A stretch of DNA of 63,888 bases from Pollutimonas subterranea. Its GTDB lineage: Bacteria; Pseudomonadota; Gammaproteobacteria; Burkholderiales; Burkholderiaceae_B. Positions 32,304 to 58,573 of this stretch are shown here, piece by piece. The stretch is from the NCBI RefSeq assembly GCF_002849655.1, contig NZ_PDNW01000021.1:1-63888 (forward strand), given 5' to 3'. Below the pieces are notes generated by a model. The model worked only from the letters and a program-made list of their open reading frames with translations. It had not been told where the DNA came from and did no database searches. The stretch's first letter is position 1; each line of letters opens with the position of its first letter. A program made the translations under genes and the position numbers.

Positions 32304-32314
32304 GGACACTAGCA

Positions 32315-39877: not shown

Positions 39878-40525
39878 CTATTGCGCAACAGGAAAATGTA
39901 GGACCGCTCCTGTCAGGGACTGGAGTTCCTCATCAGAGATATCGACTAATTTTTCTATAACTTGCATCCCCTGGGGCGCTGACTCGATAACGGCTAAGTC
40001 GGTGTAAACGCGAGACACAACACCCAACCCTGTAACCGGCAATGTACATTTCTCGACGATCTTAGGTGTGCCGTCTTTGGCATTGTGCTCCATCAGGATA
40101 AACACCTTTTTGGCGCCCACCGCCAAGTCCATGGCACCGCCTACAGCAGGGGGCTCTCCTGGCCTGCCCAGCGACCAATTCGCCAGGTCACCCGTCGACG
40201 ACACTTGCATGCCGCCCATTATGCATAGGTCCAAATGGCCGCCACGCATAATGGCGAACGAGTCGACATGGTGGAAAAAAGCACCGCCTGTCAACAGGGT
40301 GACGGGCTTTTTTCCGGCATTGATCATTTCCAGATCAATTTCGTTTTCTGGAGCTGACGGGCCCATACCCAATATGCCATTTTCGCTGTGCAGCAAGATT
40401 TCGTCAGCAGGATCCAGGTAGTTTGCTACTAGTTCCGGCATGCCGATGCCGATATTGACGTAGCTGCCCGGTGCGATGTCCTTGGCTAGGCGTTGAGCCA
40501 TTTGTTGGCGTGTCAGTCTCTGCAT
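39878..40525 (-). CDS. 3-oxoacid CoA-transferase subunit B (PcaJ/DcaJ-like)
   Basis: Beta subunit that carries the catalytic glutamate: in LLHSENGILGMGPSAPENE the Glu of SENG forms the acyl-CoA anhydride. Other family motifs are GSYVNIGIGMPELVANYL and GGHLDLCIMGGMQVSSTGDL. 215 residues. It follows subunit A after 8 bases and is the last gene of the operon. The pair resembles 3-oxoadipate:succinyl-CoA transferases, which suggests activation of a dicarboxylic acid, but acetoacetate-type substrates are possible. Confidence 0.9.
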   Translation of the reverse strand: MQRLTRQQMAQRLAKDIAPGSYVNIGIGMPELVANYLDPADEILLHSENGILGMGPSAPENEIDLEMINAGKKPVTLLTGGAFFHHVDSFAIMRGGHLDLCIMGGMQVSSTGDLANWSLGRPGEPPAVGGAMDLAVGAKKVFILMEHNAKDGTPKIVEKCTLPVTGLGVVSRVYTDLAVIESAPQGMQVIEKLVDISDEELQSLTGAVLHFPVAQ

Positions 40526-40533
40526 AGCCTGCC

Positions 40534-41214
40534 TCAGCTTGAAATTTGTGGATTTGGAATTTCGACCACGCGGTTAACAAAAATGCCTGGCGTAACAATG
40601 TTCTCGGGATCCAGCTCGCCCAGTTCCACTTTTTGCTTGACTTGAACGATGGTCGTCTTTGCCGCCATGCACATGACCGGACCGAAGTTCCGGGCTGCTT
40701 TGCGATAAACCAGGTTCCCCCAGCGATCACCCTTTTGCGCCAGCACCAGGGCGAAATCACCGCGGATGGGGGACTCAAACACATAAAACTCGCCATCGAT
40801 TTCGCGCACTTCTTTACCCTTAGCTAAATCGGTGCCGTAGCTGGTGCGCGTGAAAAATCCGCCGATACCGGCCCCGGCTGCGTGCAGACGCTCGGCAATA
40901 GTGCCCTGCGGCACGCATTCCAGCTCGATCCGGCCTTCTTTATACATTTGATTGAATACATGCGAATGGCTTGCCTTGGGGAAAGAACAAATCATTTTCC
41001 GCACCCGTCCGGCCTTGATCAACGCAGCCAGACCCACTTCGAAATTGCCCGCATTGTTATTGACGATGGTCAGGTCGGTCGCCCCCTGATCTATCAAGGC
41101 ATGGAGCAATTCGGTCGGATGCCCGGCCCCCCCGAATCCCCCTACCAATACGGTCGCACCGTCGAACACATCGACCACGGCCTCATGCGCATTGTCCACA
41201 AACTTGTTTACCAT
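40534..41214 (-). CDS. 3-oxoacid CoA-transferase subunit A (PcaI/DcaI-like)
   Basis: Alpha subunit of a family-I CoA-transferase. It is very similar in pattern to Pseudomonas PcaI: DGATVLVGGFGGAGHPTELL, TIVNNNAGNFEVGLAALIKA, GRVRKMICSFP, KGDRWGNLVYRKAARNFGP and VELGELDPENIVTPGIFV. 226 residues. Located between the SDR gene and subunit B in an operon for stepwise oxidation of an acyl-CoA. Confidence 0.9.
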   Translation of the reverse strand: MVNKFVDNAHEAVVDVFDGATVLVGGFGGAGHPTELLHALIDQGATDLTIVNNNAGNFEVGLAALIKAGRVRKMICSFPKASHSHVFNQMYKEGRIELECVPQGTIAERLHAAGAGIGGFFTRTSYGTDLAKGKEVREIDGEFYVFESPIRGDFALVLAQKGDRWGNLVYRKAARNFGPVMCMAAKTTIVQVKQKVELGELDPENIVTPGIFVNRVVEIPNPQISS

Positions 41215-41268: not shown

Positions 41269-42039
41269 TTACGCGCTTGCCCCGCCATCAATTACTATGG
41301 CCTGGCCCGTAATATGGCGGGAAGCCTCCGAAGCCAGGAATATTGCGACGCCTTTCAGATCGTCTTCGCCCCCTATGCGTCCCAACGGGATACGGTCCAG
41401 CAGGCTTTGGCCCAACTGCTCGATCAGATTGTCAGCCAACTTTGACGAAAAAAACCCGGGGCAAATCGCGTTGACGTTGATGTTGTGTTGGCCCCATTCG
41501 CAGGCCAGGGTGCGGGTGAAATTGACTGCAGCCGCCTTGGAGGTGTTGTAGCCTATGGTAGTAACGCCCTTCACCGTACCGCGCAGCCCGGCTGCTGAGG
41601 CGATATTTATGATCTTACCGTGTTGCCGCGGGATCATCACGCGCTTGCCGACTTCGCGGCACAAATAGAATAGTGCATTGATATTCAGGTCCATCAGCTT
41701 GTGCCACGCGGCATCGGGGTAGTCTTCGGCCGGAGCGCCCCAGGTCGCGCCCGCGTTATTCACCAGAATATCGATAGTGCCATAGTGCTCCAGAACCTGA
41801 TCCACCATACCCGGTATGGTATCGAACTGAGCCAGATTGTTGACAATGGCAATCACTTCGACGCCCCGCTGTTCCAAGTGGGCGCGGGCCTCTTCCAGTT
41901 CTTGGGGCTTACGTGCCGTAATGGCCAGCTTGCAGCCCATTTCACCTAGCGCCTCGGCAATTTGCAGTCCCAGGCCACGCGAACCACCGGTAATCAGGGC
42001 CACCTGGCCGTCTAGTTTGAACAGTTCCTTCACGCTCAT
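41269..42039 (-). CDS. Short-chain dehydrogenase/reductase
   Basis: NAD(P)-dependent Rossmann enzyme of 256 residues. Seen are the cofactor motif TGGSRGLGLQIAEALG, NNAG in DILVNNAGATWG, the catalytic serine in NIASAAGLRG, and YNTSK (Tyr and Lys of the active site). The start MSVKELFKLDGQVALITGG lies 23 bases behind the thiolase stop; a longer in-frame version would overlap the thiolase and is rejected. Probably acts on a 3-hydroxyacyl intermediate of the operon's substrate. Confidence 0.87.
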   Translation of the reverse strand: MSVKELFKLDGQVALITGGSRGLGLQIAEALGEMGCKLAITARKPQELEEARAHLEQRGVEVIAIVNNLAQFDTIPGMVDQVLEHYGTIDILVNNAGATWGAPAEDYPDAAWHKLMDLNINALFYLCREVGKRVMIPRQHGKIINIASAAGLRGTVKGVTTIGYNTSKAAAVNFTRTLACEWGQHNINVNAICPGFFSSKLADNLIEQLGQSLLDRIPLGRIGGEDDLKGVAIFLASEASRHITGQAIVIDGGASA

Positions 42040-42062
42040 ATCATTTTCCTGTTTTGCGTGGC

Positions 42063-43241
42063 TCAAGCGACTTCGAACAGGCCAGCCGCGCCTTGGCCGC
42101 CGCCTATGCACATTGTTACCACCACATACTTGGCTCCGCGGCGCTTTCCCTCGATCAGGGCATGGCCGGTAAGCCGGCTGCCCGACACGCCATACGGATG
42201 GCCTACGGCGATAGCTCCGCCATTCACGTTGAGGAGTTCGTCGGGGATGCCCAGCCGGTCGCGACAATACAGCACCTGGCAGGCAAAGGCTTCATTCAGT
42301 TCCCACAAGCCGATGTCATGCATCTTCAAGCCGTTTCTTTCGAGCAGGCGAGGCACGGCAAATACCGGGCCTATGCCCATTTCATCAGACTCGCAGCCGG
42401 CCACTGCAAAGCCTCGGAAAATACCCAATGGCTGCAAGCCTTTGCGCTCCGCCAGTTTCGCATCCATGACGACGCAAGCTGAAGCGCCATCGGAAAATTG
42501 GCTGGCATTGCCGGCGGTAATCACACCACCAGGGAAGACGGGTCGTATTTTCGACACCCCTTCGAGCGTAGTGTCTGCGCGTATGCCTTCGTCGGCAGCA
42601 ATGGTGACTTGACGCGTGCTGATTCGCCCCGTGGCCTTGTCGACGATGCCCATATTGGTGGTCATGGGCACGATTTCATCGTTGAACAGCCCCGCCGCCT
42701 GAGCCGCCGCAGCGCGCTGCTGACTGCGCGCTCCGTATTCATCTTGGGCATCTCGGGAAATCCCATAGCGCTTGGCTACGGTTTCGGCGGTTTGCAACAT
42801 GTTCCAGTACAGTTCAGGCTTGTGCTCGATCAGCCAGGGATCGCGGCGCATGTGCATATTGGCTTCGTTCTGCACACAAGAGATGCTTTCCACGCCGCCA
42901 GCCACCATCACCGGAACTTGCTCGGTCATCACACGCTGCGCCGCCAATGCAATGGCTTGCAAACCGGACGAACAAAAACGATTGATGCTCAAGCCGGCTG
43001 TCGTGACCGGCAGGCCGGCCCGCAACGCGATGGCCCGGGCAATATTGCCGCCAGTCGTGCCTTCAAGGTTCGTCGCACCCATGATGACATCTTCGACCTC
43101 GGCCGGGTCAATACCGGCGCGCGCCACGGCATGCTCGACGGCATGTCCGCCCAACGTGGCACCGTAGGTCATGTTGAATGCGCCCCGCCATGATCTGGCT
43201 AGGCCTGTCCTGGCGGTTGAGACAATAACTGCTTCTTTCAT
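42063..43241 (-). CDS. Acetyl-CoA acyltransferase (thiolase)
   Basis: 392-residue thiolase of the degradative class with the nucleophile Cys90 ([13 protein letters not shown]), [13 protein letters not shown], the histidine in [10 protein letters not shown] and the second cysteine in [15 protein letters not shown]. It is the second gene of the operon, 39 bases behind the multifunctional enzyme. It should cleave the 3-ketoacyl-CoA made by the preceding enzyme, or the CoA ester of a 3-oxo dicarboxylate. Confidence 0.9.
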
Positions 43242-43280: not shown

Positions 43281-45368
43281 TTACTTGAGCGCCTGGCCAG
43301 GCTCGGCGCATTGCAGCAACCGGGCTGGCTGCCAGAATTCCGCAGCCTTATCAGACTGGGCCGCGAAGCCCCGCATCGATCGCACGACATTGAACAGGCC
43401 AATCTGCTGCGCATAATGCATGGGACCGCCGCGATGCAAAGGAAAGCCGTAGCCGCTCAGGTAAACCACATCAATATCGGAAGCCCGCAAGGCAATGCCT
43501 TCTTCGAGTATCTTGGCGCCTTCATTGACTAGGGCATACACACAGCGCTCAACGATCTCACGATCGGTATAGGTTCTGGTTGTGATGCCTTTTTCGGCAC
43601 GATAATCTTCAATAATCTTGTCGACCGCAGGATCCACGATGGGCGTGCGGTTGCCCGTTTCATAGCGGTACCAACCCGCTCCCGCTTTTTGTCCGTAGCG
43701 GCCTGTCTCGCAGAGCCGGTCAGCCACCGCAGAAAAATCAGCATCCGGATTTTCTGTCTGGCGGCGCTTGCGTATTGCCCAGCCTATGTCCAGTCCAGCT
43801 AAATCGCCCATCCGATATGGCCCCATGGCGAAACCAAAAGCTTCCAGTGCCTTGTCAATGGATTCGGGCGATGCGCCGCCCAGCAAGAGCTCTTCCGAGG
43901 CGGCGCGATAGCTGTTCAACATCCGATTACCGATAAAGCCGTCACAAACGCCTGACACGACTGGCTTCTTGTTAATTTTCTTAGCCAGCGCAATAGAAGT
44001 AGCCAGCACGTCTTTGGCAGTCTTGGCGCCCCGCACGATTTCCAGCAGCTTCATGACGTTGGCCGGACTAAAAAAATGCAGACCGATGACGTCTTCGGGG
44101 CGTTTGGTCAAAGCGGCGATCGCGTCCACATTGAGCGTAGAGGTATTCGAAGCCAGAATAGCGCCCGGCTTGACGACCGCGTCCAACGCCTTGAATACTT
44201 TTTCCTTCACGCCGAGTTCTTCAAACACGGCTTCGATCACCAGATCGACGTCCACCAGGTCTTCGTAGCGCAACGTGGTGCTTAGCAAAGCCATGCGCTC
44301 ATCAAGCTGCTCCTGCGTCAGGCGGCCACGCTTCATACTGTTTTCGTAGTTGCGCCTTATGGTGCCAACGCCACGGTCCAGTGCGGCCTGCTCGGCCTCG
44401 AGCAACATGACTGGAATGCCGGCGTTCAGGAAATTCATGCTGATGCCGCCGCCCATGGTGCCCGCGCCGATTACTCCTACCTTGTGAATATCGCGCAGCG
44501 GCGTATCGGCGGGCACGTCGGGGATTTTGGTGGCTGCACGCTCAGCCGCAAATACATGCCGCAACGCCAATGATTCGGGCGAATTCATCAGTTGCAAGAA
44601 CAATTTACGTTCGTTGGCCAGACCTTGATCGAAAGGCAAAGACGCGCTGCCGGCAACCGCTTCCAGGCATAGGCGCGGTGCCGGCTGATGCTTGCTGGCT
44701 GCGGCAATATTCTTTCGGGCGACTTGCAGGAAAGCCTGAGCGTCAGGTTGCGTCACGTTCAGGTCGCGAATGCGTTTCAAAGGTGTACTCTGGCGCACGA
44801 GTTCTTTTGCGAATTCAGTGGCGGCTTCAACCACCGACGTCTCGACCACACGGTCAAACAAAGGCGTATCGGCCAGCGTAGACGCCTTGACAATAGACCC
44901 CGTGACAATCATGTCCAGCGCCGTTTCCAGGCCCAGCACGCGTGGCAAGCGCTGGGTTCCGCCACCGCCCGGCAAGAGTCCTAGGTTGACCTCCGGCAGG
45001 CCGACTTTGGCCTGGGCGGCAGCCACGCGAAAATGGGCCCCCAGAGCCAACTCCAGGCCACCCCCCAGGCACACGCCATCAATGGCTGCAACCACCGGCT
45101 TGCTTACCTGCTCGAGCACTTCAATGACGGTTCTAAGCGTGGGCTGCCAACCTGATTTGGGCGTGCCGAACTCGGTAATATCGGCGCCGCCGGAAAAAGC
45201 GCGCTCATTTCCTGTGAGGACGATGGCTGCGACCGCGGCATCGCCTTGAGCCTGATCCAACGCTTCGACTATGCCTTTGCGCACCGCAAAGCCTAGACCA
45301 TTGACGGGTGGATTTTGTAGGGTGATGCGGGCAATTCCGTCCACCACGTCGTAAAGTACAAGACTCAT
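43281..45368 (-). CDS. Enoyl-CoA hydratase / 3-hydroxyacyl-CoA dehydrogenase (FadB/PaaH-fused type)
   Basis: Bifunctional enzyme of 695 residues. The hydratase domain carries [20 protein letters not shown] and [20 protein letters not shown] with both acidic residues; the dehydrogenase domain begins [20 protein letters not shown] and contains [15 protein letters not shown] with the catalytic histidine. The C-terminal domain ends at [13 protein letters not shown]. This layout equals the short-chain bifunctional enzymes of betaproteobacteria. First gene of the operon; an IclR-type site lies 37 bases before the start. Confidence 0.92.
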
Positions 45369-47457: not shown

Positions 47458-49266
47458 ATGAATTCATCGCTCAATTCACTATTGATCAATCGCATCGATC
47501 TTGACTTTCTCCTCAACGATGTACTCCAGAGCGGGCTGCTTCTCGAACGGGATCGCTATGCAGACCATTCCAGCGAAACTTTTACCGCCACCATCGATAC
47601 CGCGCAAAAACTGGCACAGGAGCTATTTGCTCCGCATAACCGTAAAGCCGACGAAAACGAACCGCATTTCGATGGTGTGACGGTCAAGACGCTGCCGGAG
47701 ATAAAAGCAGCAGTAGTGGCTTTTGCGCAGGCGGGCTTCCTGGCCGCCACCCATGATTATGGGTTGGACGGCATGCAACTACCCGTCACTATTTCGCAAT
47801 CTTGCCTAGCCTTGTTTCGCGCCGCCAATGTGAGCACCTCAGCGTATTGTTTCCTGACAGCCGCCAACGCCAACCTGATCCGCAGCTTTGGCACGGATGA
47901 GCAAAAACGCCGCTATTTGCCTGCGTTATTACAAGGCCGCTGGTTCGGCACCATGGCGCTGACCGAGCCGCAGGCAGGTTCGTCGGTCTCCGACCTGCGC
48001 TGTACCGCTACCCCCCAAGCCGATGGCCGTTACCTAATCAAAGGCCAGAAAATTTTCATTTCAGGCGGCGATCATGACTTGGGTGAAAACATCATCCACC
48101 TGGTGTTGGCCCGCCTGCCCGACGCACCACTCGGTTCCAAGGGTCTTTCGCTGTTCATCGTGCCCAAGTTTCGCGTTAATGCCGACGGCCTGGCCGGCGA
48201 GCCGAACGATGTCGCGCTGGCCGGCCTGATCCATAAGATGGGCTATCGGGGCACCACATCCGCCATGCTCAATTTTGGCGAACAAGACGCGTGCATGGGC
48301 GAACTGATAGGCGAGCCAGGCATGGGGCTCAACTGCATGTTCCATATGATGAACGAAGCTCGCATCGGAGTTGGTATGGGAGCCAGCATGCTCGCTTATA
48401 CTGCCTATCTGCACGCGCTGGACTACGCCAAGAACCGTGAACAAGGCCGCCTAATAGGGCAGAATGACCCAGCCAGCCCGCCTGTCGCTATTATCGAACA
48501 TGCCGATGTGCGGCGCATGCTGCTCACGCAGAAATCCTATGTAGAAGGCGCACTGCATCTATGCCTGTACGCCGCGCGTCTCGTCGACGACGAGAGAACG
48601 CAGCCCGATGAGGATGCTCGCCGCGAAGCGGCACAGGTCCTGGCCCTGCTCATTCCCATCGTTAAATCATGGCCAGCCCGTTATGGCCTTGCCGCCAACG
48701 ATCTGGCGATCCAGGTATACGGCGGCTATGGCTACACTCGAGAATACCCCGTTGAGCAGTTCTACCGTGACAACCGTCTGAACCAATTGCACGAGGGCAC
48801 GCATGGCATTCAGAGTTTGGATCTGCTGAACCGTAAAGTAGGTATGAAAGAAGGCCTGCCGTTACGTCAATTGCACGCGCGCGTATTAGCCACCATTGAT
48901 CGTGCACATCAGGTGGCCGGCCTTAAATCCCATGCAGATCAGTTGCAGACGGCTTGGCAAGAACTATTACGTACAACAGAAGTGCTACTGGCTGCCGCCA
49001 GCGAAGACCTGCGCAAAGCCAGCGCGAACTCGGCCGCCTACCTCGACCTGTTCGGCCATCATGTATTAGCCTGGCTATGGCTGGAACAGGCGGTAGCCGC
49101 CCATGCCCTGCTGGAACACCAGCCTCATATGGCAGATTTCTACCAAGGCAAACTCGCTGCTTGCACCTGGTTTTATCATACTGAACTCGCGACCACCCAG
49201 CCACAACACCTGTTGCTGCGCGATATCGAACGCCATGCATTGAACGTCAAGGCGGAATGGCTCTAA
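47458..49266 (+). CDS. Acyl-CoA dehydrogenase, large DmdC-like class
   Basis: FAD-dependent dehydrogenase of 602 residues. The length and motifs (MALTEPQAGSSVSDLRC, KGQKIFISGGDHDLGENIIH, LFIVPKFRVNADG, MMNEARIGVGMG and QVYGGYGYTREYPVEQFYRD) follow the 590-600 residue class that includes 3-methylmercaptopropionyl-CoA dehydrogenase DmdC. The real substrate is not known. It is divergent from the Bug/IclR pair and converges on the sigma54 activator, and could supply the first oxidation for the minus-strand operon. Confidence 0.88.
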   Translation: MNSSLNSLLINRIDLDFLLNDVLQSGLLLERDRYADHSSETFTATIDTAQKLAQELFAPHNRKADENEPHFDGVTVKTLPEIKAAVVAFAQAGFLAATHDYGLDGMQLPVTISQSCLALFRAANVSTSAYCFLTAANANLIRSFGTDEQKRRYLPALLQGRWFGTMALTEPQAGSSVSDLRCTATPQADGRYLIKGQKIFISGGDHDLGENIIHLVLARLPDAPLGSKGLSLFIVPKFRVNADGLAGEPNDVALAGLIHKMGYRGTTSAMLNFGEQDACMGELIGEPGMGLNCMFHMMNEARIGVGMGASMLAYTAYLHALDYAKNREQGRLIGQNDPASPPVAIIEHADVRRMLLTQKSYVEGALHLCLYAARLVDDERTQPDEDARREAAQVLALLIPIVKSWPARYGLAANDLAIQVYGGYGYTREYPVEQFYRDNRLNQLHEGTHGIQSLDLLNRKVGMKEGLPLRQLHARVLATIDRAHQVAGLKSHADQLQTAWQELLRTTEVLLAAASEDLRKASANSAAYLDLFGHHVLAWLWLEQAVAAHALLEHQPHMADFYQGKLAACTWFYHTELATTQPQHLLLRDIERHALNVKAEWL

Positions 49267-49284: not shown

Positions 49285-51021
49285 CTAGTGTTGTGAGTCC
49301 GTGTCACGTCGCAGCACCTTATACAGATAAGAACGCGAAATACCCAAGCTCTCGGCAGCCTGTTTCTTGTTGCCGTTATGGTGGCTAATAGCATCTTGCA
49401 CTGCTTCATACTCTAGCAGTCTCAATGTGTGGCCAGAAGACAACCGACCTTCCTGCGGCCCAAAAGTGCCTTTGTTGCCTCTGCCCGAAGACTTGCTAAT
49501 TGCATTGGGCGCCGCGCCAATCAACGCCTGCTCCCGCTCCTCTCTCGTGAAATCCTCTATGCGCAACACTTGGCCGTCGCAAAAAACCAGCGCCTCTTCG
49601 ACTTTTTGCCTTAGTTGTCGCACATTTCCTGGCCACGGCAACTGCGCAAGATAACGCGCCACATCGCTAGCAATGGCTGGCGCAACAATAGCATTGCGCT
49701 TGCAGAAACCTCGAACGAAATGAGACAGGAATGCGGGAATTTCTTCCCGCCTTTGTTCGAGGGCAGGAATGCGTAATACTACCCCGCTAAGACGATAATA
49801 AAGATCCAGGCGGAATCGCCCAGCATCAATCAGCGACTGAATATCACGATTTGTAGCCGCTACGATTCTGAAGGCAATACGCCGTGGAATGTGACTGCCG
49901 ATTCTTTCAACCATATGGTCTTCAAGCACTCGCAGCAATTTAACCTGCATCTCCATGGGAATGTCGGCTACCTCATCCAGAAAAAGCGTGCCTCCTTCGG
50001 CCTGCTCCAGCTTGCCGACTTGTCCCTCGCGCCTACCGCCTGTAAAGGCGCCAGGCGCATACCCGAACAACTCCGACTCCAATAGGGTGGCCGGCAATGC
50101 CGCCAGGTTCAGGCTAATCAACGGCCGGCCTCCTATGCTATTGTCGCCCCCCGCATGGATCGCTCGCGCAACCAGTTCTTTGCCCGTGCCGCTTTCCCCA
50201 AGAATAAGCACAGGCACATCAAGTTTTGCAACGGTTTCTATTTCACGCCGCAGGCGTTGCATAGGAGCGCTGTCACCAATCAGCCTTTTGTCTGGTTCGT
50301 TCTTGCCGCGTAACTCCTCGAGCTCACGTCGGTATTGCTCAAGCTGTGTCTTCATACGTGCCAGACTGCGCTGCATTTGCGTAAGCGCCTCGGAATTCTT
50401 AAACAAGACTTGACCAATAGCGCCAACAACCTCGCCATCTCGCATAACCGGAATACGGTTAACAATGCGCGTCACGCCATCGGATACGTCCTGTAATTGT
50501 GCAATCTCGGCCTTACCAGTGGTGGCCACGATATCCAGCCGGGAGTTCGGAATCACCTCGCCAGCTTGGCGACCATAGCCTTCCCCCTTCCTGAGGCCGA
50601 AAAAACGTTCATGCGTAGGGCTTATGTAAAGAATTTTTCCTGTGCTGTCCACCACGTTCACCGCCTGATAGGGGCTGGTAATGAAATGGTTGAGAATAGT
50701 GGCCGCAAACGGCACAGCGGCAATAAAATCGACTAGGGCATCCTCGAAACGGCAGTCGCGCAGCAGCACTAATTGATGCGCATGATCCTGTAGCCGAAGG
50801 CCTATATATTTTTTTGGCTGCGCGTTGTCGCCGTCCGTATCATCAACCACGTCAACGTGGAACATCACGCTGCTATGCCCAGGCATATTTTCAAGGGTGC
50901 GGCACGCACTTAGGGTCGCTTGCTGAACCGCGTCATTGCCAGCCACTCCAAAGGCATAAAGCACAACGCTCTCGGCATCGCACACCATGGCTCCGAGCAC
51001 CTCGTCTTCAAGTGTTTTCAC
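49285..51021 (-). CDS. Sigma54-dependent transcriptional activator (PAS-AAA+-Fis)
   Basis: Bacterial enhancer-binding protein. From the N-terminus: an unassigned sensor region, a PAS-like domain (about 115-205, AVNVVDSTGKILYISPTHER), a short coiled coil, the AAA+ domain with Walker A GESGTGKE near 275, loop GAFTGG near 324 (usual GAFTGA) and Walker B GGTLFLDE near 343, and a Fis-type helix-turn-helix at the end (KKQAAESLGISRSYLYKVLR). I prefer GTG 51021 with AAAGG upstream (578 residues); an ATG at 51075 is the alternative. Divergent from the operon with a sigma54 promoter. Confidence 0.9.
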   Translation of the reverse strand: MKTLEDEVLGAMVCDAESVVLYAFGVAGNDAVQQATLSACRTLENMPGHSSVMFHVDVVDDTDGDNAQPKKYIGLRLQDHAHQLVLLRDCRFEDALVDFIAAVPFAATILNHFITSPYQAVNVVDSTGKILYISPTHERFFGLRKGEGYGRQAGEVIPNSRLDIVATTGKAEIAQLQDVSDGVTRIVNRIPVMRDGEVVGAIGQVLFKNSEALTQMQRSLARMKTQLEQYRRELEELRGKNEPDKRLIGDSAPMQRLRREIETVAKLDVPVLILGESGTGKELVARAIHAGGDNSIGGRPLISLNLAALPATLLESELFGYAPGAFTGGRREGQVGKLEQAEGGTLFLDEVADIPMEMQVKLLRVLEDHMVERIGSHIPRRIAFRIVAATNRDIQSLIDAGRFRLDLYYRLSGVVLRIPALEQRREEIPAFLSHFVRGFCKRNAIVAPAIASDVARYLAQLPWPGNVRQLRQKVEEALVFCDGQVLRIEDFTREEREQALIGAAPNAISKSSGRGNKGTFGPQEGRLSSGHTLRLLEYEAVQDAISHHNGNKKQAAESLGISRSYLYKVLRRDTDSQH

Positions 51022-51124
51022 TGAGCACACCTTTCTGTTTATACAAACACACTTTTGTGTCTCCAATGAGGACATTCTATCGTCTCAATCGAAACATACC
51101 CAGTTAAATCATTATTGATTGACG

Positions 51125-51140
51125 TTGGCACAGATATTGC
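51125..51140 (+). promoter_or_regulatory. Sigma54 promoter of the carboxylase operon
   Basis: TTGGCACAGATATTGC contains TGGCAC, 5 bases, then TTGC, matching the -24/-12 consensus (TGGCAC N5 TTGC) at all invariant positions including GG and GC with correct spacing. It lies 53 bases before the GTG start of the carboxyltransferase gene and next to a divergent sigma54 activator gene. Confidence 0.85.
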
Positions 51141-51192
51141 GCTTCATCTCATATAGCTTATTGAAAATATAAAACCATACAAGGAGTCAAAT

Positions 51193-52740
51193 GTGACTTG
51201 GCAGCCCGAAATTGATGAATTGGCATATCGCAAGCAATTAGCTTCAGCCCTAGGAGGGGCAGAAAAAGTGGCTCGGCATAAAGCCGCGGGGAAGCTGACA
51301 GTTCGAGAACGTATCGCTACCTGCGCCGACCCCGAGTCTTTCCACGAAATAGGGGCGTTGACAGGCACGGGGCAGTACGACGCCCAAGGCAAACTCATAG
51401 GCTTGACACCCGCCAATCTAGTAATAGGACGAGCACGCATATCGGGGCGGCCCGTCGTCTTGGTCGGAGACGACTTTACTGTGCGCGGTGGAGCCAACGA
51501 TGGCAGTATCGGCGACAAGCTGATCTATGCTGAAAAAATGGCCCGTGATCTACGCCTGCCCATGGTTCGCTTGGTAGACGGCACTGGCGGAGGCGGCTCG
51601 GTACGCAATATAGAAACCAAGGGCCATACTCTTATTCCTACAATGAAAGTCTGGCAGCATGTAGTCGAAAATATGTCGCTGGTGCCCGTCGTATCGTTAG
51701 CGCTTGGCTCTGTGGCGGGAATGGGTGCGGCCCGTGTGGCTGCGAGCCATTACTCGGTCATGGTCAAAGACAGCTCACAATTATTCAATGCGGGGCCGCC
51801 TGTTGTGGCCCGTGCCGGCCAACATATTGAAAAAAACGACCTTGGCGGCAGCCACATTCACACTCGCAACGGCGTGGTCGACGACGAAGCCGCCAGTGAA
51901 GCAGATGCGCTAGAACGCGTACGACGCTTCCTTTCTTATTTGCCATCAAACGTTTTCGAGCTCCCTCCCCGCGGCGAAATCAATGATGACACCAATCGGC
52001 GTGATGAGTGGCTGCTCTCAGCCATTCCTCGTAATAGCCGGTCCGTTTATAAAATCCGGCCCATCGTCGAAACTCTGGTCGACAATGGCTCGTTCATGGA
52101 AATGGGTCGCTACTGGGGCAAAGGCCTCGTCACCGGCCTGGCTCGCATCGACGGCTGGCCGGTAGCGGTCGTTGCCAGCGATCCTTACCATTACGGGGGC
52201 GGCTGGGACGGCCCGACAGCGGAAAAATTCACCCGCTTTGTCGATTTGGCTGAAGTTTTTCATCTACCAGTGTTAAATCTGGTCGATATCGCCGGCTTCC
52301 AGATCGGGCTAGAGGCCGAGAAGGCGGGCATCATGCGCTATGGGGTGCGCGCACTGGCGGCGGTGTATCAGACGACAACGCCCTGGTGCTCTCTTATATT
52401 GCGCCGCGCCTATGGCGTTGCCGCTGCGGGGCATCAGCATATGGGCCGCTATAACTTCCGCTATGCATGGCCGTCGGGAAATTGGGGCTCTCTGCCTATC
52501 GAAGGCGGCCTCGACGTGGCTTACAAGGCAGAAATCGAAGGCGCAGACGATCCTGTACAAAAACGCGCGGAAATCGAGCAACGCGTACGCAGCCTGACAT
52601 CCCCTTTCCGTAGCGCCGAAGCCTTCGTCATCGAAGACATCATTGATCCGCGTGACACACGGCGCCTGCTATGCGAATTCGCAAATCTTGCCGCACCGCT
52701 GCGCGAACCGGGTATACGCAAATTCGGTATCCGCCCATAG
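51193..52740 (+). CDS. Acyl-CoA carboxylase, carboxyltransferase subunit
   Basis: Biotin-dependent carboxyltransferase beta-type protein of 515 residues. N domain: RHKAAGKLTVRERIATCADP, FHEIGALTG and VAGMGAARVAASHYSVMVKD; FNAGPPVVARAGQHIEKNDL then GGSHIHTRNGVVDDEA is the pattern of propionyl- and methylcrotonyl-CoA carboxylases. The C domain (LPVLNLVDIAGFQIGLEAEK and RRAYGVAAAGHQHMGRYNFR) is more divergent. GTG start after AAGGAG. Operates with the separate biotin carboxylase and carrier encoded downstream. Substrate not known. Confidence 0.87.
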   Translation: MTWQPEIDELAYRKQLASALGGAEKVARHKAAGKLTVRERIATCADPESFHEIGALTGTGQYDAQGKLIGLTPANLVIGRARISGRPVVLVGDDFTVRGGANDGSIGDKLIYAEKMARDLRLPMVRLVDGTGGGGSVRNIETKGHTLIPTMKVWQHVVENMSLVPVVSLALGSVAGMGAARVAASHYSVMVKDSSQLFNAGPPVVARAGQHIEKNDLGGSHIHTRNGVVDDEAASEADALERVRRFLSYLPSNVFELPPRGEINDDTNRRDEWLLSAIPRNSRSVYKIRPIVETLVDNGSFMEMGRYWGKGLVTGLARIDGWPVAVVASDPYHYGGGWDGPTAEKFTRFVDLAEVFHLPVLNLVDIAGFQIGLEAEKAGIMRYGVRALAAVYQTTTPWCSLILRRAYGVAAAGHQHMGRYNFRYAWPSGNWGSLPIEGGLDVAYKAEIEGADDPVQKRAEIEQRVRSLTSPFRSAEAFVIEDIIDPRDTRRLLCEFANLAAPLREPGIRKFGIRP

Positions 52741-52781
52741 ACAACACCCTTTCCGTCAACACAACAAATTGAGAGACAAAC

Positions 52782-53798
52782 ATGACCAACAACGCCTTGC
52801 AACTTCAATTGCCATATCAATCTGCGGCGATGGCCGCCGCGGCTTTCATCATGGCGATGCTTGCCATGCTTTTTACCCCGCCTTCCTTTGCGCAGCCTGA
52901 CGCCTGGCCAAAAAAGCCGATTACGCTGATCGTTCCCTTTCCCGCTGGCGGCATGACAGACGTGCTTGCCCGCCGTATTGGGCGAGATATGCAAGAAACG
53001 CTAAAGCAGTCCGTAGTCATTGAAAACCGGCCCGGCGCCAGCGGGCAAATTGGCACCCAGCATGTGGCACAAGCGACACCTGACGGATACACTCTTCTGG
53101 TATCGGCAACGCATCACGCCATCAATCCTGCGCTACGGCACAACCTGCCCTACGACGCATCCAAAGACTTTACCGCTATAGCGCTGCTTGCCACCACGCC
53201 CAATTTACTCGTGGTGAACAAGGACATACCCGTATCCAACCTGCAAGAGTATCTTGCCTATGCAAAAAAAATGGATGGCGGCATGTTATTTGCATCGTCC
53301 AGCGTGGGCGGCGCCACCCATTTGTCAGGGGAGTTGCTCAAGCTGATGACGGGCGCCCCCATGGCCCATATCTCCTACAAGGGCGCCACGCCCGCATTAC
53401 AAGATCTTCTTGGCGGCCATGTCCCTTCACTTTTCCACGATGTCATGACCATGGCTCCTTTCGTTAAAGATGGCCAAGTCAAGGCCATTGGCGTTACTTC
53501 CAGCACACGCAGCGAAGCCTTACCCGATGTTCCCACCATTGCCGAGCAAGGCGTGCAAGGATATGAAGCCATTACATGGATAGGCTTTTATGGTCCTGCA
53601 GGCCTGGATAAATCCATCACCGACAAACTGAATGCCATCGCGGTAAAAAGCCTGAATAACGCCGAAGCAAAGGAGTATTTCACACTGAACGGAACCTCTC
53701 CAGGCGAGCTGAATCCCGAGCAGTTTGACTCCTTCGTCCATGGCGAACTGACCAAGTGGAAGCGCGTGGTGCAGGATGCCAACCTGAAGGTGGAATAA
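52782..53798 (+). CDS. Bug/TctC-type periplasmic binding protein
   Basis: 338 residues. A long signal region ends near PPSFAQ; the family marks are WPKKPITLIVPFPAGGMTDV, IENRPGASGQIGTQHVAQAT and ISYKGATPALQDLLGGHVPS. Encoded inside the sigma54 operon between carboxyltransferase and acyl-CoA ligase, so it likely captures the acid that the operon activates and carboxylates. No membrane transporter genes are near; it may share one encoded elsewhere. Confidence 0.9.
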   Translation: MTNNALQLQLPYQSAAMAAAAFIMAMLAMLFTPPSFAQPDAWPKKPITLIVPFPAGGMTDVLARRIGRDMQETLKQSVVIENRPGASGQIGTQHVAQATPDGYTLLVSATHHAINPALRHNLPYDASKDFTAIALLATTPNLLVVNKDIPVSNLQEYLAYAKKMDGGMLFASSSVGGATHLSGELLKLMTGAPMAHISYKGATPALQDLLGGHVPSLFHDVMTMAPFVKDGQVKAIGVTSSTRSEALPDVPTIAEQGVQGYEAITWIGFYGPAGLDKSITDKLNAIAVKSLNNAEAKEYFTLNGTSPGELNPEQFDSFVHGELTKWKRVVQDANLKVE

Positions 53799-53800
53799 TT

Positions 53801-55888
53801 ATGTTGCTCGATATCCTGGCGCCGCGATCTGTTGCCATCCTTGGCGCATCGGACAGTCCGATCAAGGCAGGTGGGCGGCCTATAGACTACATGCGCCGCT
53901 TTGGCTTTAAAGGGGACATTTACCCCGTCAACCCCCACCGCCGGCAAATTCAGGGCATGCCCTCGTACCGTCAATTGACAGACTTGCCTGCGCAGCCTGA
54001 CATCGTCATTGTCAGCGTAGCCAGCCAAGACGTAGTGCAAGCCATCGATGACTCCATTGCCGTAGGCGCTCGCGCCGCAGTTATCTATTCGTCGGGCTTT
54101 GCCGAGCTTGGCGCGGCGGGCCAGAAACAGCAACAAGAGTTGGTCGAGCGGGCCAGAGCCGGCGGCCTACGCCTGTTTGGGCCCAATACCCAGGGCATCG
54201 CCAATTTCCGTGATGGCGCTGTGCTGCATTTTTCAACCATGATCAACGAGAACCCGCCCAGCGATGGTCCTGTGGCGATCGTCAGCCAGAGCGGCGCGGG
54301 CTCCGCCATTATCTATGGAGGCTTGAGGCGTGCGGGCATCGGTGTCCGCTACATGGTCGCCACGGGTAATGAAGCCGATATATCCGCTGCAGAAGTCGTG
54401 CGCGCCGTCGTTGAAGACGAATCGATCCGCGCCGTGCTGCTTTACATCGAAGCCATGCGCAATGCCGACGCACTTGCCGAAGCGGCATGTATTGCACATG
54501 CCCGCGATATACCCATATTGGCCGTTAAAGCGGGGCGCACCCGTGCCGGCCAACTTACCGCGTCTTCTCATACCGGATCGCTCGCCGGCGAAGATGCGCT
54601 CACAGACGCTTTCTTTCGCCAGCACGGCATTGTACGTTTAGCGGACTTCCATGAACTCATTGAATACAGTGCGCTATTTTCGAGCCCGTATAGGCCAAAA
54701 GGGCGCAAGGTGGTGTCTATAAGCAACTCGGGCGCCACCTGCGTACTGGCCGCCGATGCGGCGGAAGACCATGGGTTATCACTATGTGAATTTTCACCGT
54801 CAACCATCAGCGCACTAAAACAAGTACTGCCTTCCTACGTCACGGCCCGCAACCCTATTGACATGACAACAGCACTATTAGGCCAGCCGGAAATCTACGG
54901 CAAAACCCTTGAAACGCTGGCGCAACAGCAGCAAGCCGACATGATCCATATTGGATTCCCCATCGGTGGAGAGGGTTATGACTTCAGCGATTTTTCAGTA
55001 CAAACAGGCAGCTTCATGGAGCACAGCGGGATACCCGTAACAGTAAGCACTAATCAGGATTGGGTCAGTAACACATTTCGTGTCCAAAACGTACCCGTAT
55101 TTGGCAGCGAACGCAGCGCCATGCGCGGCCTGGCTCTGCTGGAAAACTATGTTGAAATGCGGGATGCGCTGCGAAAAGAACCTGGCGGCATTGCTCCAAA
55201 AAAACAAAATATCAGCGCCGCCGCCATTACGCTGGATGAACCCAGCAGTCTTGCAGCGCTGGCTGCAGCCCATCTTCCAGTAGTCCAGCACATACTATGC
55301 CGTTCTGAAGCTGATGTGCGTAATGCGATCGCACAGATGGAAGGGCCGTTGGTCGCTAAAGGCGTATCCAAAAACTTGGCTCATAAGTCCGAGCACAAGC
55401 TTGTACGGTTAGGCATACACACCGAATCAGAAGCCATTCGGGCCTTTAACGACTTCATGGCCATCCTGAACCAGCTTTCCGTCGAAAATGGCGGCATGCT
55501 ATTGGCGCGCCAGCATCACGGCGATTTTGAACTGGCTATTGGCGCCCATCTTGACCCGGACTACGGACCCATCGTCATGGTAGGTCAGGGCGGCGTACTG
55601 GTGGAAGTGCTCAAAGATGTCCAGTTCTTGATCGCTCCCTTCACGGAAAGACAAGCCTACGATGCTCTACTGCGTCTGCGCATTGCCCCCGCTTTTGGTG
55701 AAGTCCGAGGCATGCCGGCCGTTAACCTGCACCGCATAACAGCCATGCTGACCTCGCTTGGTGACTGGATGATGCACGCCCAGGGCGCCATCTGTTCGGT
55801 TGACGCCAACCCTGTCATTGTGGCTCGGGGAGACATCGACCCAGTGATTGTCGATGCCGTTGTCATGGGCACCGGAGTTCCGGCATGA
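53801..55888 (+). CDS. NDP-forming-type acyl-CoA ligase (acetate/feruloyl-CoA synthetase-like)
   Basis: 695-residue fused CoA ligase of the succinyl-CoA synthetase superfamily: a CoA-binding domain (LAPRSVAILGASDSPIKAGG RP, split for length), VAIVSQSGAGSAIIYGGLRR, the phospho-histidine loop SHTGSLAGEDALTDAFFRQH, and a C-terminal ATP-grasp domain (GPLVAKGVSKNLAHKSEHKL, VMVGQGGVLVEVLKDVQFLI). This domain order is shared with ADP-forming acetyl-CoA and feruloyl-CoA synthetases. It starts 3 bases behind the Bug gene and overlaps the biotin carboxylase gene by ATGA. Substrate not known. Confidence 0.87.
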   Translation: MLLDILAPRSVAILGASDSPIKAGGRPIDYMRRFGFKGDIYPVNPHRRQIQGMPSYRQLTDLPAQPDIVIVSVASQDVVQAIDDSIAVGARAAVIYSSGFAELGAAGQKQQQELVERARAGGLRLFGPNTQGIANFRDGAVLHFSTMINENPPSDGPVAIVSQSGAGSAIIYGGLRRAGIGVRYMVATGNEADISAAEVVRAVVEDESIRAVLLYIEAMRNADALAEAACIAHARDIPILAVKAGRTRAGQLTASSHTGSLAGEDALTDAFFRQHGIVRLADFHELIEYSALFSSPYRPKGRKVVSISNSGATCVLAADAAEDHGLSLCEFSPSTISALKQVLPSYVTARNPIDMTTALLGQPEIYGKTLETLAQQQQADMIHIGFPIGGEGYDFSDFSVQTGSFMEHSGIPVTVSTNQDWVSNTFRVQNVPVFGSERSAMRGLALLENYVEMRDALRKEPGGIAPKKQNISAAAITLDEPSSLAALAAAHLPVVQHILCRSEADVRNAIAQMEGPLVAKGVSKNLAHKSEHKLVRLGIHTESEAIRAFNDFMAILNQLSVENGGMLLARQHHGDFELAIGAHLDPDYGPIVMVGQGGVLVEVLKDVQFLIAPFTERQAYDALLRLRIAPAFGEVRGMPAVNLHRITAMLTSLGDWMMHAQGAICSVDANPVIVARGDIDPVIVDAVVMGTGVPA

Positions 55889-57282
55889 AGTCACAAAAAA
55901 ACATACACCACCAACCCCTACGCCGCGTACTGGTGGCCAATCGCGGCGCTGCCGCAGCGCGTGTAATTCGAGCCCTTCGCGTGTTGGGCATTATCTCGAT
56001 TGCCGTCTATTCGGAAGCAGATGCTGGCCTCCCCTATCTGCAAGAGGCTGATCTCGCCATCCCTATTGGTCCTGCTCAAGCATCGCTTAGCTACCTTGAT
56101 CAGGACAACATCATCAAGGTCGCTTTGGAGGCAGAGGCCGACGGCATACACCCCGGCTATGGCTTCCTCTCCGAGAATGCGGAATTCGCCGAACGCGTAC
56201 AGGCCGCTGGCTTATGCTTCATTGGGCCATCACCGCAATGGATACGCCGCCTCGGTCACAAAACCCAGGCTCGCAGCTTCATGGCAAGCGAAGGCATGCC
56301 TCAGGCAGCCAGCTCGCCGGTATTGCCCAACGATCCCAGAGCCATAGCTGCCGCCGCCGACGCCATCGGTTTTCCGGTTCTTATCAAACCCGCCGGCGGT
56401 GGCGGTGGCATTGGAATGCTGCCGGCCCACAATCATGCAGAGCTGATGACAGCATGGTCGAAGGCCAGTTCGATTTCACAAAAAAGCTTTGGCACCGCGG
56501 AGCTCTACCTTGAAAAGCTGATAAGCGCGCCACGTCACGTCGAATTTCAAGTACTGGCCGACCGTTACGGCGGCGTGCGTGTGCTGTTCGAGCGAGATTG
56601 CTCGGTTCAGCGCCGCCATCAGAAGGTGATAGAAGAAGCACGAGCACCCGCCATCAATAACGAAACGCTTGAGCATGTGTCGGCATTAATCGCCGAACTG
56701 CTCGCACGGGTCGGCTACGATATCATTGGCACCGTCGAAATGCTTTACACGCCAGAGGCCGGCTTTGTGTTTCTTGAAATGAATACCCGGCTACAGGTGG
56801 AACATGCCATCACCGAAGAAATAACCGGTATAGACATTGTTACAGCTCAAATCCGCCTGGCCAGCGGCGAATCCATAGACGCCGTCCTGCCTCAGGCCAT
56901 TACCGCGCATGGCCATGCCATTGAAGCTCGTATCTATGCCGAAGACCCCTTGAGCTTCCTGCCCTCCCCCGGTCCGCTGCAGACTTTCACGCTGCCTCAA
57001 GGAGATGGCATCCGCACCGAAACCGGCTACGCACAAGGATGCATCGTTTCGTCCTACTACGATCCGATGATCGCAAAAGTCATTGCATGGGGTGAAGACA
57101 GGCCTGCGGCTATCCAACGATTACGGCAGGCGCTTACAGAATTCGACATACGCGGCATCAAGACCAACATCCCTTTCATCATACGAGTGCTGGATCACGA
57201 CGACTTTAATGCATGCCGCATTGATACCGCGCTCTCACAACGCGTGCTCGCCACGCCTGAAACACAAAAGGAAATGATATGA
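55885..57282 (+). CDS. Biotin carboxylase-like subunit
   Basis: ATP-grasp enzyme of 465 residues that carboxylates biotin. Conserved active-site parts are ADGIHPGYGFLSENAEFAER, FERDCSVQRRHQKVIEEARA and FLEMNTRLQVEHAITEEITG (Glu, Asn and Arg of the catalytic set). Two deviations stand out: VANRGAAAARVIRAL lacks the usual RGEIA glutamate, and the glycine loop reads KPAGGGGGIGM where most have a basic residue before GM. 4-base overlaps on both sides show tight coupling to ligase and carrier. Confidence 0.87.
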   Translation: MKSQKNIHHQPLRRVLVANRGAAAARVIRALRVLGIISIAVYSEADAGLPYLQEADLAIPIGPAQASLSYLDQDNIIKVALEAEADGIHPGYGFLSENAEFAERVQAAGLCFIGPSPQWIRRLGHKTQARSFMASEGMPQAASSPVLPNDPRAIAAAADAIGFPVLIKPAGGGGGIGMLPAHNHAELMTAWSKASSISQKSFGTAELYLEKLISAPRHVEFQVLADRYGGVRVLFERDCSVQRRHQKVIEEARAPAINNETLEHVSALIAELLARVGYDIIGTVEMLYTPEAGFVFLEMNTRLQVEHAITEEITGIDIVTAQIRLASGESIDAVLPQAITAHGHAIEARIYAEDPLSFLPSPGPLQTFTLPQGDGIRTETGYAQGCIVSSYYDPMIAKVIAWGEDRPAAIQRLRQALTEFDIRGIKTNIPFIIRVLDHDDFNACRIDTALSQRVLATPETQKEMI

Positions 57283-57491
57283 AATCCATAGAAAGCCAAG
57301 TCGGCGGTCAAATCATGCGTATTGAAGTGTCGGAAGGCTCAACCATCACCGAGGGACAGACGCTGTTAATTGTGGAATCCATGAAAATGGAAATCCCGCT
57401 GGAAGCTGATGAGGGGGGTACGATCAAGGCCATACTTGTGCAGCCGGGCGATGCAATCACCGAAGGACAAATCGTAATGGAGATCGAGTGA
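57279..57491 (+). CDS. Biotin carboxyl carrier protein, single-domain
   Basis: 70-residue biotinyl domain. The biotinylated lysine is Lys36 in VESMKMEIPLEADEGG, and the rest (GGQIMRIEVSEGSTITEGQT) is the typical flattened beta barrel. It has no N-terminal extension, unlike AccB. Encoded between biotin carboxylase and thioesterase with overlaps of ATGA and GTGA. Together with the two enzymes it forms a three-part acyl-CoA carboxylase with the carrier as a free-standing subunit. Confidence 0.93.
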   Translation: MKSIESQVGGQIMRIEVSEGSTITEGQTLLIVESMKMEIPLEADEGGTIKAILVQPGDAITEGQIVMEIE

Positions 57492-57940
57492 GCACACTGA
57501 CTAACATAGTGCTCCGGCCAGAGCCTTCCAGTGCAATGACTGCCAAGGGCCTGTATTTTGGTATCGACGTTCCCTTCATGCGCCATATTGGCCTCAAGCC
57601 CGAACGGCTGGAACCTGGCTATGCAAGAACCCGGCTGCCGCTGAAAGAAGAGTTGCTGAACAGTCGCGGCGATGTCCATGGCGGAACACTGATGAGCGCC
57701 CTAGACTTCTCTTTAAGTGCGGCGGCGCGCTCAAGCGATCCACTAAGCTATGGCGTAATCACGATCGAGATGTCGACGCACTTTCTGGGTGCAGCACGTT
57801 CTGACCTGCTGTTCGAGGCGCGAGTGATCCGGCAAGGTAGTCGTATCGTATTCTGTGAGGGCACCGTATCAGACGACAACGAGGCTATCGTTTGCGTGGC
57901 GCGGGCGACATTCAAACTTGTTCCCCTCGGGCGCAGATAA
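57488..57940 (+). CDS. PaaI-family hotdog thioesterase
   Basis: 150 residues of the hotdog fold: LLNSRGDVHGGTLMSALDFS holds the HGG loop of PaaI-type thioesterases, followed by GVITIEMSTHFLGAARSDLL and VSDDNEAIVCVARATFKLVP. It starts with GTG overlapping the biotin carrier stop. It may release the free acid or clear dead-end CoA esters. The stop lies only 2-3 bases before the remnant of an IS630 transposase, so the 3' end is next to a transposon scar and its last residues could be altered. Confidence 0.87.
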   Translation: MSTLTNIVLRPEPSSAMTAKGLYFGIDVPFMRHIGLKPERLEPGYARTRLPLKEELLNSRGDVHGGTLMSALDFSLSAAARSSDPLSYGVITIEMSTHFLGAARSDLLFEARVIRQGSRIVFCEGTVSDDNEAIVCVARATFKLVPLGRR

Positions 57941-57942
57941 TG

Positions 57943-58442
57943 CGCATTAATGAATTGGCGGATCGCATCGCGCAGTTCCTGCACGCTGCTTAACACGCCT
58001 CAGTACGGCGCTCGACGACATTCAGTTCCTCAGCAAAATGAGGATCGTTGCTAGTTTTGAAGCTCTGCAGCCGGTGCGGCTTAAGATCCGCACCCTGCTA
58101 GACCTGAGAGACCTGCCAGACAGTGGCACCCGTGTACTTGGCTATCAGCCCCAGGATCTCCTGGACCTTCTGTTGCGTGAGCTTGGGTGGCTGCCCCGGA
58201 CGTGGCAGATCATCCAGCCCGGCAAGGCCTTGCTCCTGATAGCGATTACGTTATTTAAAGACGACTGGCGCCGAGATTCCAAGGCCTTCACTGACCTTGC
58301 CGGGCGGCTGTGCCGCATCCAACTTCAGCAGGATCCGCGCACGTTGCGCAAGGCGTTGATCCAGGGTGCTTTTGCCAAGCCACCCTGGAAATTCCGCGCG
58401 GTCCAAGGCAGACAAAGTGAAAACAGCAGTAGGTTTACTCAT
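57943..58442 (-). pseudogene. IS630-family transposase remnant, frameshifted and internally deleted
   Basis: Minus-strand pieces in order: ALDRAEFPGWL and RLAQRARILLKLDAAQPPG (N-terminal helix-turn-helix); after a frame change NRYQEQGLAGLDDLPRPGQP then LTQQKVQEILGLIAKYTGAT; then after a stop KPHRLQSFKTSNDPHFAEEL; finally ELRDAIRQFINAH from the normal C-terminus. The catalytic core with the DDE residues is missing. This is a decayed insertion sequence located exactly between the thioesterase gene and the S10 operon terminator. Confidence 0.8.
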
Positions 58443-58573
58443 GGCAGACATCCGATCAAAATGGACATCACCCATTTTTACTTCAAACCGTTTTACAAAT
58501 AAATTAACGAAACTCTACAGACAGGTCAAATGCATTATGCTTAGTTCCGGATGTATAACCGCTAAGCAAAAAA
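58443..58573. other. Spacer between IS630 remnant and rpsQ terminator
   Basis: About 130 AT-rich bases with no gene and no recognised repeat. It may contain the lost terminal repeat of the IS630 element, but I could not pick one out with confidence. Confidence 0.3.

Follow-up and report, generated by a model that had tools for sequence, protein, structure and literature searches.

A conserved bacterial gene set in Pollutimonas subterranea that appears to link an organic acid to CoA and to add CO2

Introduction

What does a biotin-dependent carboxylase do in an operon that also encodes a coenzyme A (CoA) ligase and a periplasmic binding protein and that has an activator of its own? The question is raised by a locus of Pollutimonas subterranea, in a 63,888-nucleotide stretch of contig NZ_PDNW01000021.1 that is called the window below. 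Open reading frames (ORFs), translations and Pfam matches placed six genes on one strand at 51193-57940. Their order is carboxyltransferase (CT), TctC-type periplasmic binding protein (Bug), acyl-CoA ligase, biotin carboxylase (BC), biotin carrier (BCCP) and thioesterase. A sequence-only reading of the window had named this set and a divergent PAS-AAA+-Fis activator, and all of them were found at the place and on the strand it gave. The gene set is real and widely conserved in bacteria. It appears to take up an organic acid, link the acid to CoA and add CO2.

Results

CoA activation and carboxylation occur together

The comparison covered 163 stretches, namely 77 loci selected by CT similarity, five annotated plasmid stretches, 80 stretches from further genomes (four from the window's own) and the window; a CT was present in 161. 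Fetched stretches carry L-numbers and sampled genomes G-numbers. Genes in the fetched stretches were called by codon usage, by which small or unusual genes can be missed, and several strains of one species were counted separately in the locus tables. In the group counts, "near" means within 7 genes of the CT, and two duplicate fetches (L056/L120 and L088/L194) were removed; the earlier tables for the sigma54 site, the thioesterase and the per-gene rates count both twice.

Where the CT was at least 74% identical to that of the window (n = 38), a CoA-activating enzyme was near in 37 loci, Bug in 37 and BC in 36. At 60-73% identity (n = 54), the corresponding numbers were 33, 39 and 23, with an SCP-x thiolase in 24 loci and HAD or MaoC in 26. 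The module was mostly absent at 51-59% identity (n = 20), where an activating enzyme was near in 8 loci and BC in 2, and both were common again at 37-50% (35 and 33 of 45 loci). Wherever BC was near the CT, a CoA-activating enzyme was near too, in 36 of 36 and 23 of 23 loci of the two closest groups, which are all 59 such loci of clade A (CT at least 60% identical). The same was seen in 28 of the 33 BC-bearing loci at 37-50% identity, and in neither of the two methylcrotonyl-/geranyl-like CTs of the window's own genome.

The kind of activating enzyme varied widely beside this CT. In the closest group, whose CTs are about 75-85% identical to that of the window, 15 of 38 loci, the window included, had an NDP-forming ligase, and 22 had a class III CoA-transferase of two fused domains, accompanied by a BC-BCCP-CT fusion. 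A class I CoA-transferase was near in 23 of the 54 loci at 60-73% identity; this 3-oxoacid type occurred in (putative) Achromobacter and other loci. Single-domain class III CoA-transferases prevailed at 37-50% identity (29 of 45), and an AMP-forming ligase stood beside the CT on some Hyphomicrobiales and Rhodococcus plasmids. In a FastTree phylogeny of 155 CTs, with one label per locus, a fixed priority where two kinds were near and unlabelled rows omitted, the kind changed at least 17 times. That enzymes of different families which make a CoA ester from a free acid swap beside a conserved CT is the main argument for placing activation and carboxylation in one pathway. The functional link between the two, as the sequence-only reading had proposed, is supported by this co-occurrence and exchange, although the exchange does not fix their order.

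A conserved sigma54 promoter and its activator

The element TTGGCACAGATATTGC (51125..51140, + strand) contains an exact match to TGGCACN5TTGC at 51126-51140, which ends 52 bases 5' of the CT start codon. Within the window alone the pattern occurred at chance frequency, with two exact matches, and nine with at most one mismatch against 7.4 expected, so its significance comes from the comparison between genomes. The looser pattern TGGCN8TGC lay at most 260 bases upstream of the CT in 35 of 38 loci with a divergent activator (a count that includes the window and one locus fetched twice), in 4 of 122 loci without one, and in 2.3% of shuffled upstream regions. For the strict pattern the values were 6 of 38, 0 of 122 and 0.04%. 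An activator was near the CT in 37 of 38 loci at 74% identity or more and in none of the 54 at 60-73% (duplicates removed).

The activator gene (49285..51075, - strand) encodes a variable N-terminal region, PAS, AAA+ and lid domains and a Fis-type helix-turn-helix, according to Pfam. Both hallmarks of a sigma54-dependent operon, an upstream -24/-12 element and an AAA+ activator, were present here. Sigma54 control of the operon, as predicted earlier, is supported by the conservation of the site across genomes. The PAS match (20.2 bits) fell below the Pfam cut-off of 22.6, and the domain had a weak likeness (E 1e-4 to 6e-4) to the cytoplasmic PAS of a CitA. Assignment of the effector by homology was dropped because these matches were weak.

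Components of the operon

The CT gene (51193..52740, +, GTG start) encodes 515 amino acids that matched PF01039 Carboxyl_trans with 279.6 bits. The Bug gene follows after 41 bases (52782..53798, +; Pfam TctC, 239 bits) and, 2 bases on, the gene of a fused NDP-forming acyl-CoA ligase of 695 amino acids (53801..55888, +; Pfam CoA_binding_2, Succ_CoA_lig and ATP-grasp_5). Overlaps of 4 bases join the ligase gene to that of a stand-alone BC (465 amino acids; 55885..57282, +), this to the gene of a stand-alone 70-residue BCCP with the biotin motif ESMKMEI (57279..57491, +; both by Pfam and NCBIfam), and the latter to the gene of a hotdog thioesterase (150 amino acids; 57488..57940, +; Pfam 4HBT). 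All parts that mark the biotin-dependent acyl-CoA carboxylase superfamily, BC, a biotin carrier with the MKM motif and CT, were present together at the locus.

The best solved-structure matches of the Bug protein were a terephthalate-binding protein and Bug27. As these solved relatives bind differing acids, assignment of the ligand by homology was dropped. The best solved match of the ligase was 4-hydroxybutyrate-CoA ligase. On the models for acetate-, 3-hydroxypropionate- and 4-hydroxybutyrate-CoA ligases, it scored 335 of 567, 282 of 1300 and 293 of 1300 bits, far under the cut-offs. The thioesterase had been labelled PaaI, a name that did not survive: it scored 25.1 bits on the PaaI model against a cut-off of 118.9, and we therefore regard it as a generic hotdog enzyme. 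It lay within 5 genes of the CT in 10 of 39 loci with a CT at least 74% identical.

The carboxyltransferase forms a discrete subfamily

Searches for the CT gave matches at E <=1e-100 in 85 of 268 genomes from the family of the window, and at E <=1e-90 in 44 of 399 genomes from its order. Among the matches listed for a phylum sample of 398 genomes, 30 places had at least 49% identity and the next had 34%, a gap that makes the CT a discrete subfamily there. Relatives at 37-48% identity occur in Burkholderiales and on plasmids. Within the genus (five genomes, the window's included), three carried the CT at E <=1e-100: the window's own, G201 (67% identical) and G202 (44%).

The best solved matches of the CT were propionyl- and acetyl-CoA carboxylases. 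The single-chain fold model (pLDDT 84, with 54-60 at residues 131-150) was closest to acetyl- and propionyl-CoA carboxylases and transcarboxylase 12S, several of them solved with CoA or a CoA ester. The active site of a CT sits between two subunits, and the model was therefore used for fold comparison only. In the CoA-proximal N-terminal stretch, G19, G20, R36 and R38 (8pn8 numbering) were invariant in 155 of 155 CTs; a G20R substitution in the solved enzyme is described as lying ~8 A from the CoA 3'-phosphate (PMC10729300). The genome had five PF01039 matches, which were the window CT, two like methylcrotonyl-CoA carboxylase (MCC) or geranyl-CoA carboxylase (GCC), and two partial ones whose place in the model suggests AccA and AccD. 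The carboxylase matches no characterised type among those compared.

Residues at the specificity positions

In propionyl-CoA carboxylase (PCC), the specificity positions are Leu100, Tyr143 and Asp407 (Methylorubrum numbering), as in the PCC of L223, to which the window CT is 33% identical. The window CT has Asn102 in place of Leu and Ala412 in place of Asp, and the loop at about 130-150 differs. Asn102 was conserved in 89 of 91 clade A CTs; in the next group this position was Ala in 16 of 20 CTs, and in the distant group it was Ser in 28 of 44. Position 145 was His in 74, Tyr in 10 and Arg in 7 of the 91, and its alignment is uncertain, as His145 fell on Tyr143 of PCC in only two of five alignments (14-row L-INS-i and profile comparison). 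At position 412, 89 of 91 had Ala or Gly. Ile stands at 407 in the solved PCC-like chains 1x0u and 1vrg, and only positions 100 and 143 separated the natural PCC rows used. Going by these residues, the CT would be a distinct subfamily of the PCC fold that acts on a different small acyl group, probably a more polar one.

The substitutions recall an engineered glycolyl-CoA carboxylase (8pn8), for which Asn100 and His143 are described as having been put into PCC to accept glycolyl-CoA (PMC10729300). The likeness consists of Asn at the Leu100 position, His at Tyr143 in the two alignments mentioned, and the lack of Asp at 407. However, 8pn8 was made in the laboratory from PCC, while the window CT is natural and 29% identical to it over the structural alignment. 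The Asn/His match suggests a polar acyl group, no more. Clade A could in principle be a natural carboxylase of hydroxyacyl-CoA (glycolyl-, lactyl- or similar) and so a natural counterpart of the engineered enzyme. In that case the operon would serve to take up a hydroxy acid, convert it to the CoA ester and carboxylate this to a tartronyl-type product; we consider this quite doubtful. A link to arylmalonates found little in the genome, where the Amdase family had a single match, below the cut-off (20.1 of 25.9 bits) and on a different contig.

Downstream enzymes in relatives and in the window

About one-third of the clade A relatives also have thiolase or hydratase/dehydrogenase genes. The contrast drawn in the sequence-only reading, that this carboxylase lacks the hydratase and dehydrogenase neighbours usual for its kind, fails for the family, since such genes were near the CT in 26 of 54 relatives at 60-73% identity. 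In some operons there is in addition a thiolase of SCP-x type and its ChsH2-type OB-fold partner, accompanied by one of three sets: a fusion of hydratase and dehydrogenase, a 3-hydroxyacyl-CoA dehydrogenase, or an SDR plus an MFE-2-type MaoC hydratase. In L045 (putative Bordetella trematum) and L108 (putative Achromobacter), OB-fold, thiolase and dehydrogenase genes lie directly 3' of a window-type operon.

A cluster at 39.9-47.3 kb of the window is a candidate for the second half of the pathway, though it might also be a common beta-oxidation cluster. It contains a two-subunit class I 3-oxoacid CoA-transferase (39878..41214, -), an SDR and a thiolase (41269-43241), and a fused enoyl-CoA hydratase/3-hydroxyacyl-CoA dehydrogenase (43281..45368, -). 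The CoA-transferase shares NCBIfam subfamilies with that of the L105 operon, and its eight best matches among the fetched loci were 54-57% and 60-63% identical; those of the hydratase-dehydrogenase were 50-59% identical. The cluster has its own IclR regulator, 61% identical to the one upstream of the L046 operon, and its thiolase is of another kind (PRK07108) than the SCP-x type of the relatives. Membership in the pathway is uncertain for an acyl-CoA dehydrogenase with a PF12806 C-terminus (47458..49266, +; Pfam), to which dehydrogenases in three CT loci (L075, L076 and L109) were 34-39% identical.

Further observations on the window and related loci

A separate cluster of TetR, acyl-CoA dehydrogenase, thiolase and hydratase-dehydrogenase genes occupies 29317-35550 of the window and is followed by a FadL-like outer membrane protein (35630-36901, named by eye). 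Between the operon and a ribosomal protein cluster (58.6-63.4 kb), 58250-58480 holds one short ORF and a part where no gene is clear; by eye it resembled a transposase remnant, and a Pfam search of it matched no family.

Several relatives showed unusual arrangements. In C. necator-type loci (L053:10612-16444), the CT is followed by a 1105-residue BC-BCCP-CT fusion and an 823-residue fusion of two class III CoA-transferase domains; the two different CTs of such an operon perhaps form a mixed hexamer. Two or three CT genes were present in the distant loci L106, L147, L150, L152, L153 and L201. Only the activator, CT and BCCP were called in L049 (putative Pelistega). On Cupriavidus plasmid pMTS3 (L115:17469-21948), bioA, bioF, bioD and bioB follow a class III transferase/BCCP/CT/BC cluster. 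Upstream of the activator, L043 contains a putative cyclase (PF04199; 5067-6128) together with genes for an IclR-like regulator, an NDP ligase, Bug, an OB-fold protein and a thiolase, and L102 has the same gene order.

Eleven loci (L065-L074 and L112) carry closely related orphan CTs, with no BC, BCCP or CoA-activating enzyme called near; a Bug gene adjoins in seven of them, and a first, cruder gene calling gave a BCCP-like ORF on the opposite strand in L065. The IlvD, RraA and hydroxyacid-dehydrogenase neighbours of L066-L074 were given no weight because the CTs are nearly identical. In five phylum genomes of ~6 to 8 Mb (L205-L209), the neighbours of a CT ~56% identical encode a TRAP permease (DctM by Pfam in L205, with homologues in L206-L209), a solute-binding protein and an IclR-like regulator, and no BC was called near.

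Discussion

We propose that the operon is under sigma54 control and serves the catabolism of a carboxylic acid taken up from outside, with the CoA ester made first and then carboxylated, and we judge the chances of this proposal to be about even. The PAS-AAA+ protein would sense a signal and open the sigma54 promoter, which is backed by conservation. Bug may then capture the acid in the periplasm. Going by their families, the ligase would make the CoA ester of the acid with ATP, BC would load CO2 on the small biotin carrier, and CT would transfer it to the CoA ester to give a carboxylated acyl-CoA. The thioesterase might hydrolyse this product, or hydratase, dehydrogenase and thiolase steps might take it further.

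Several observations weigh against this proposal. The operon contains no permease gene, and import is read from a lone binding protein. A CoA-activating enzyme was missing within 7 genes of the CT in 21 of 54 loci at 60-73% identity and 12 of 20 at 51-59%, and BC was missing in 31 and 18 of these loci, which indicates that the CT can stand apart from the module. Compared per gene, CoA-activating enzymes within 5 genes of the CT and those 7 or more genes away numbered 0.113 and 0.068, 0.078 and 0.058, 0.043 and 0.042, and 0.097 and 0.027 in the four groups. This contrast is modest in three of the four; co-occurrence with BC weighs more as evidence. No enzyme with measured activity was found in clade A. 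Finally, the class I 3-oxoacid CoA-transferases and SCP-x-type thiolases beside the CT also fit carboxylation before CoA activation. Of the route from import through activation to carboxylation put forward in the sequence-only reading, the link between the last two steps was supported, while import hangs on the lone Bug and the order is not fixed.

The reverse order would have the carboxylase make a beta-keto acid from a free ketone, which a ligase or CoA-transferase then activates and a thiolase cleaves, as in the logic of the HpeCBA pathway; p-ethylphenol degradation in Aromatoleum (XccBCA) reportedly follows the same ketone-first logic. HpeCBA of Rhodococcus is described as a three-subunit biotin-dependent carboxylase (BCCP, CT and BC) that acts on phosphorylated acetophenones, carboxylating the ketone 4-phospho-acetovanillone before CoA attachment, with a CoA ligase of its operon predicted to act afterwards, and XccBCA as its closest characterised homologue (PMC9618137). 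Compared by gene content, the window operon resembles the HpeCBA, Acv and XccBCA systems in its three separate biotin-dependent subunits. The relatives' class I 3-oxoacid CoA-transferases, and their SCP-x-type thiolases with an OB-fold partner, suit beta-keto acids. The thiolase is also matched by the model of BbsB, the benzoylsuccinyl-CoA thiolase, far below its cut-off (160 of 750 bits). The gene set of benzylsuccinate beta-oxidation (Bbs) is said to comprise a class III CoA-transferase, an SDR and a thiolase with OB-fold partner, all of which also occur beside the CT in various relatives, and no carboxylase, whereas the window system has carboxylation. However, the Hpe and Acv operons have a kinase and a phosphatase, and the annotation of 47.4-57.9 kb, eight genes in all, gave neither of them. 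Genes for kinase and carboxylase of the Hpe kind are given as clustered in only 52 of 836 cases (PMC13101465). A Bug protein suits an acid rather than a ketone, and the CT keeps its CoA-proximal N-terminal stretch, though HpeB may keep the same stretch. The class I CoA-transferase and thiolase of the relatives fit the ketone-first order, and Bug and the conserved N-terminus of CT fit the CoA-first order. On balance we consider carboxylation of a free ketone unlikely.

Carboxylases of familiar type were less convincing. A PCC (or acetyl-CoA carboxylase) with its own propionate ligase would agree with the fold, the CoA-proximal stretch and the best solved matches of the CT, and no other PCC-type CT was found among the five PF01039 matches of the genome. 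Nevertheless, methylmalonyl-CoA mutase had no match in the genome, by a search that was positive in 8 of 14 control genomes. The canonical PCC locus L223 has a mutase (Pfam) and MeaB- and epimerase-like genes (named by eye) beside its CT, and a comparison at E 1e-15 with the called genes of the 182 other stretches gave no homologue of these proteins. The window system further differs from PccB-type PCC in its separate BC and 70-residue BCCP and, with the alignment of His uncertain, in having Asn102/His145/Ala412 for Leu/Tyr/Asp. The propionate route was disfavoured on the grounds of the absent mutase, the neighbours and the residues, and we regard it as improbable. The thiolase, SDR and MaoC kinds of enzyme can also run in the synthetic direction. 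The operon might on that account supply a malonyl-type extender unit, with the relatives' SCP-x thiolase, SDR and MaoC as condensing, reducing and dehydrating enzymes, and extender-unit carboxylases (5ini and 5ing) are among the structural neighbours. The Bug protein, the sigma54 activator, and the LysR, IclR or GntR regulators and CoA-transferases beside the CT of relatives point instead to an external acid, and make such a supply role highly improbable.

A paralogue of MCC or GCC would belong to the same domain family as the window CT, and the Liu and Atu enzymes of these types are examples of carboxylation in the catabolism of an acid that resists beta-oxidation. However, two other CTs in the genome have that look, one of them next to AtuA, and the window CT is only 27-28% identical to them. 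The gene after each encodes a BC-like protein whose length, 672 or 657 residues, is that of a BC-BCCP fusion, a partner that the window CT does not have. The motif DSGGA(N/F)LP, taken from these two CTs, was absent from the window CT, which falls in a different clade. The MCC/GCC route was disfavoured because CTs of both looks sit elsewhere in the genome, and it seems extremely improbable. The sequence-only reading had held that specificity residues of PCC or MCC, or homologues already assigned to a known carboxylase pathway, would speak against a new route. Such residues were not present in the CT. Among the open-licence papers listed by searches for this gene set and for analogous carboxylases, none assigned a pathway to it, and an earlier description elsewhere is possible.

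Few acyl groups are known as substrates of carboxylation by biotin enzymes, and a conserved carboxylation pathway would add a CO2-fixing reaction to catabolism. The gene set extends across relatives in Cupriavidus, Achromobacter and Bordetella and also, where the CT is more distant, to others of the phylum. The several unrelated CoA-activating enzymes beside one CT offer a way to find the acid, since it should be a substrate of each. Were the acyl group hydroxylated, the enzyme would be a natural starting point for synthetic photorespiration bypasses, which now rely on an engineered enzyme.

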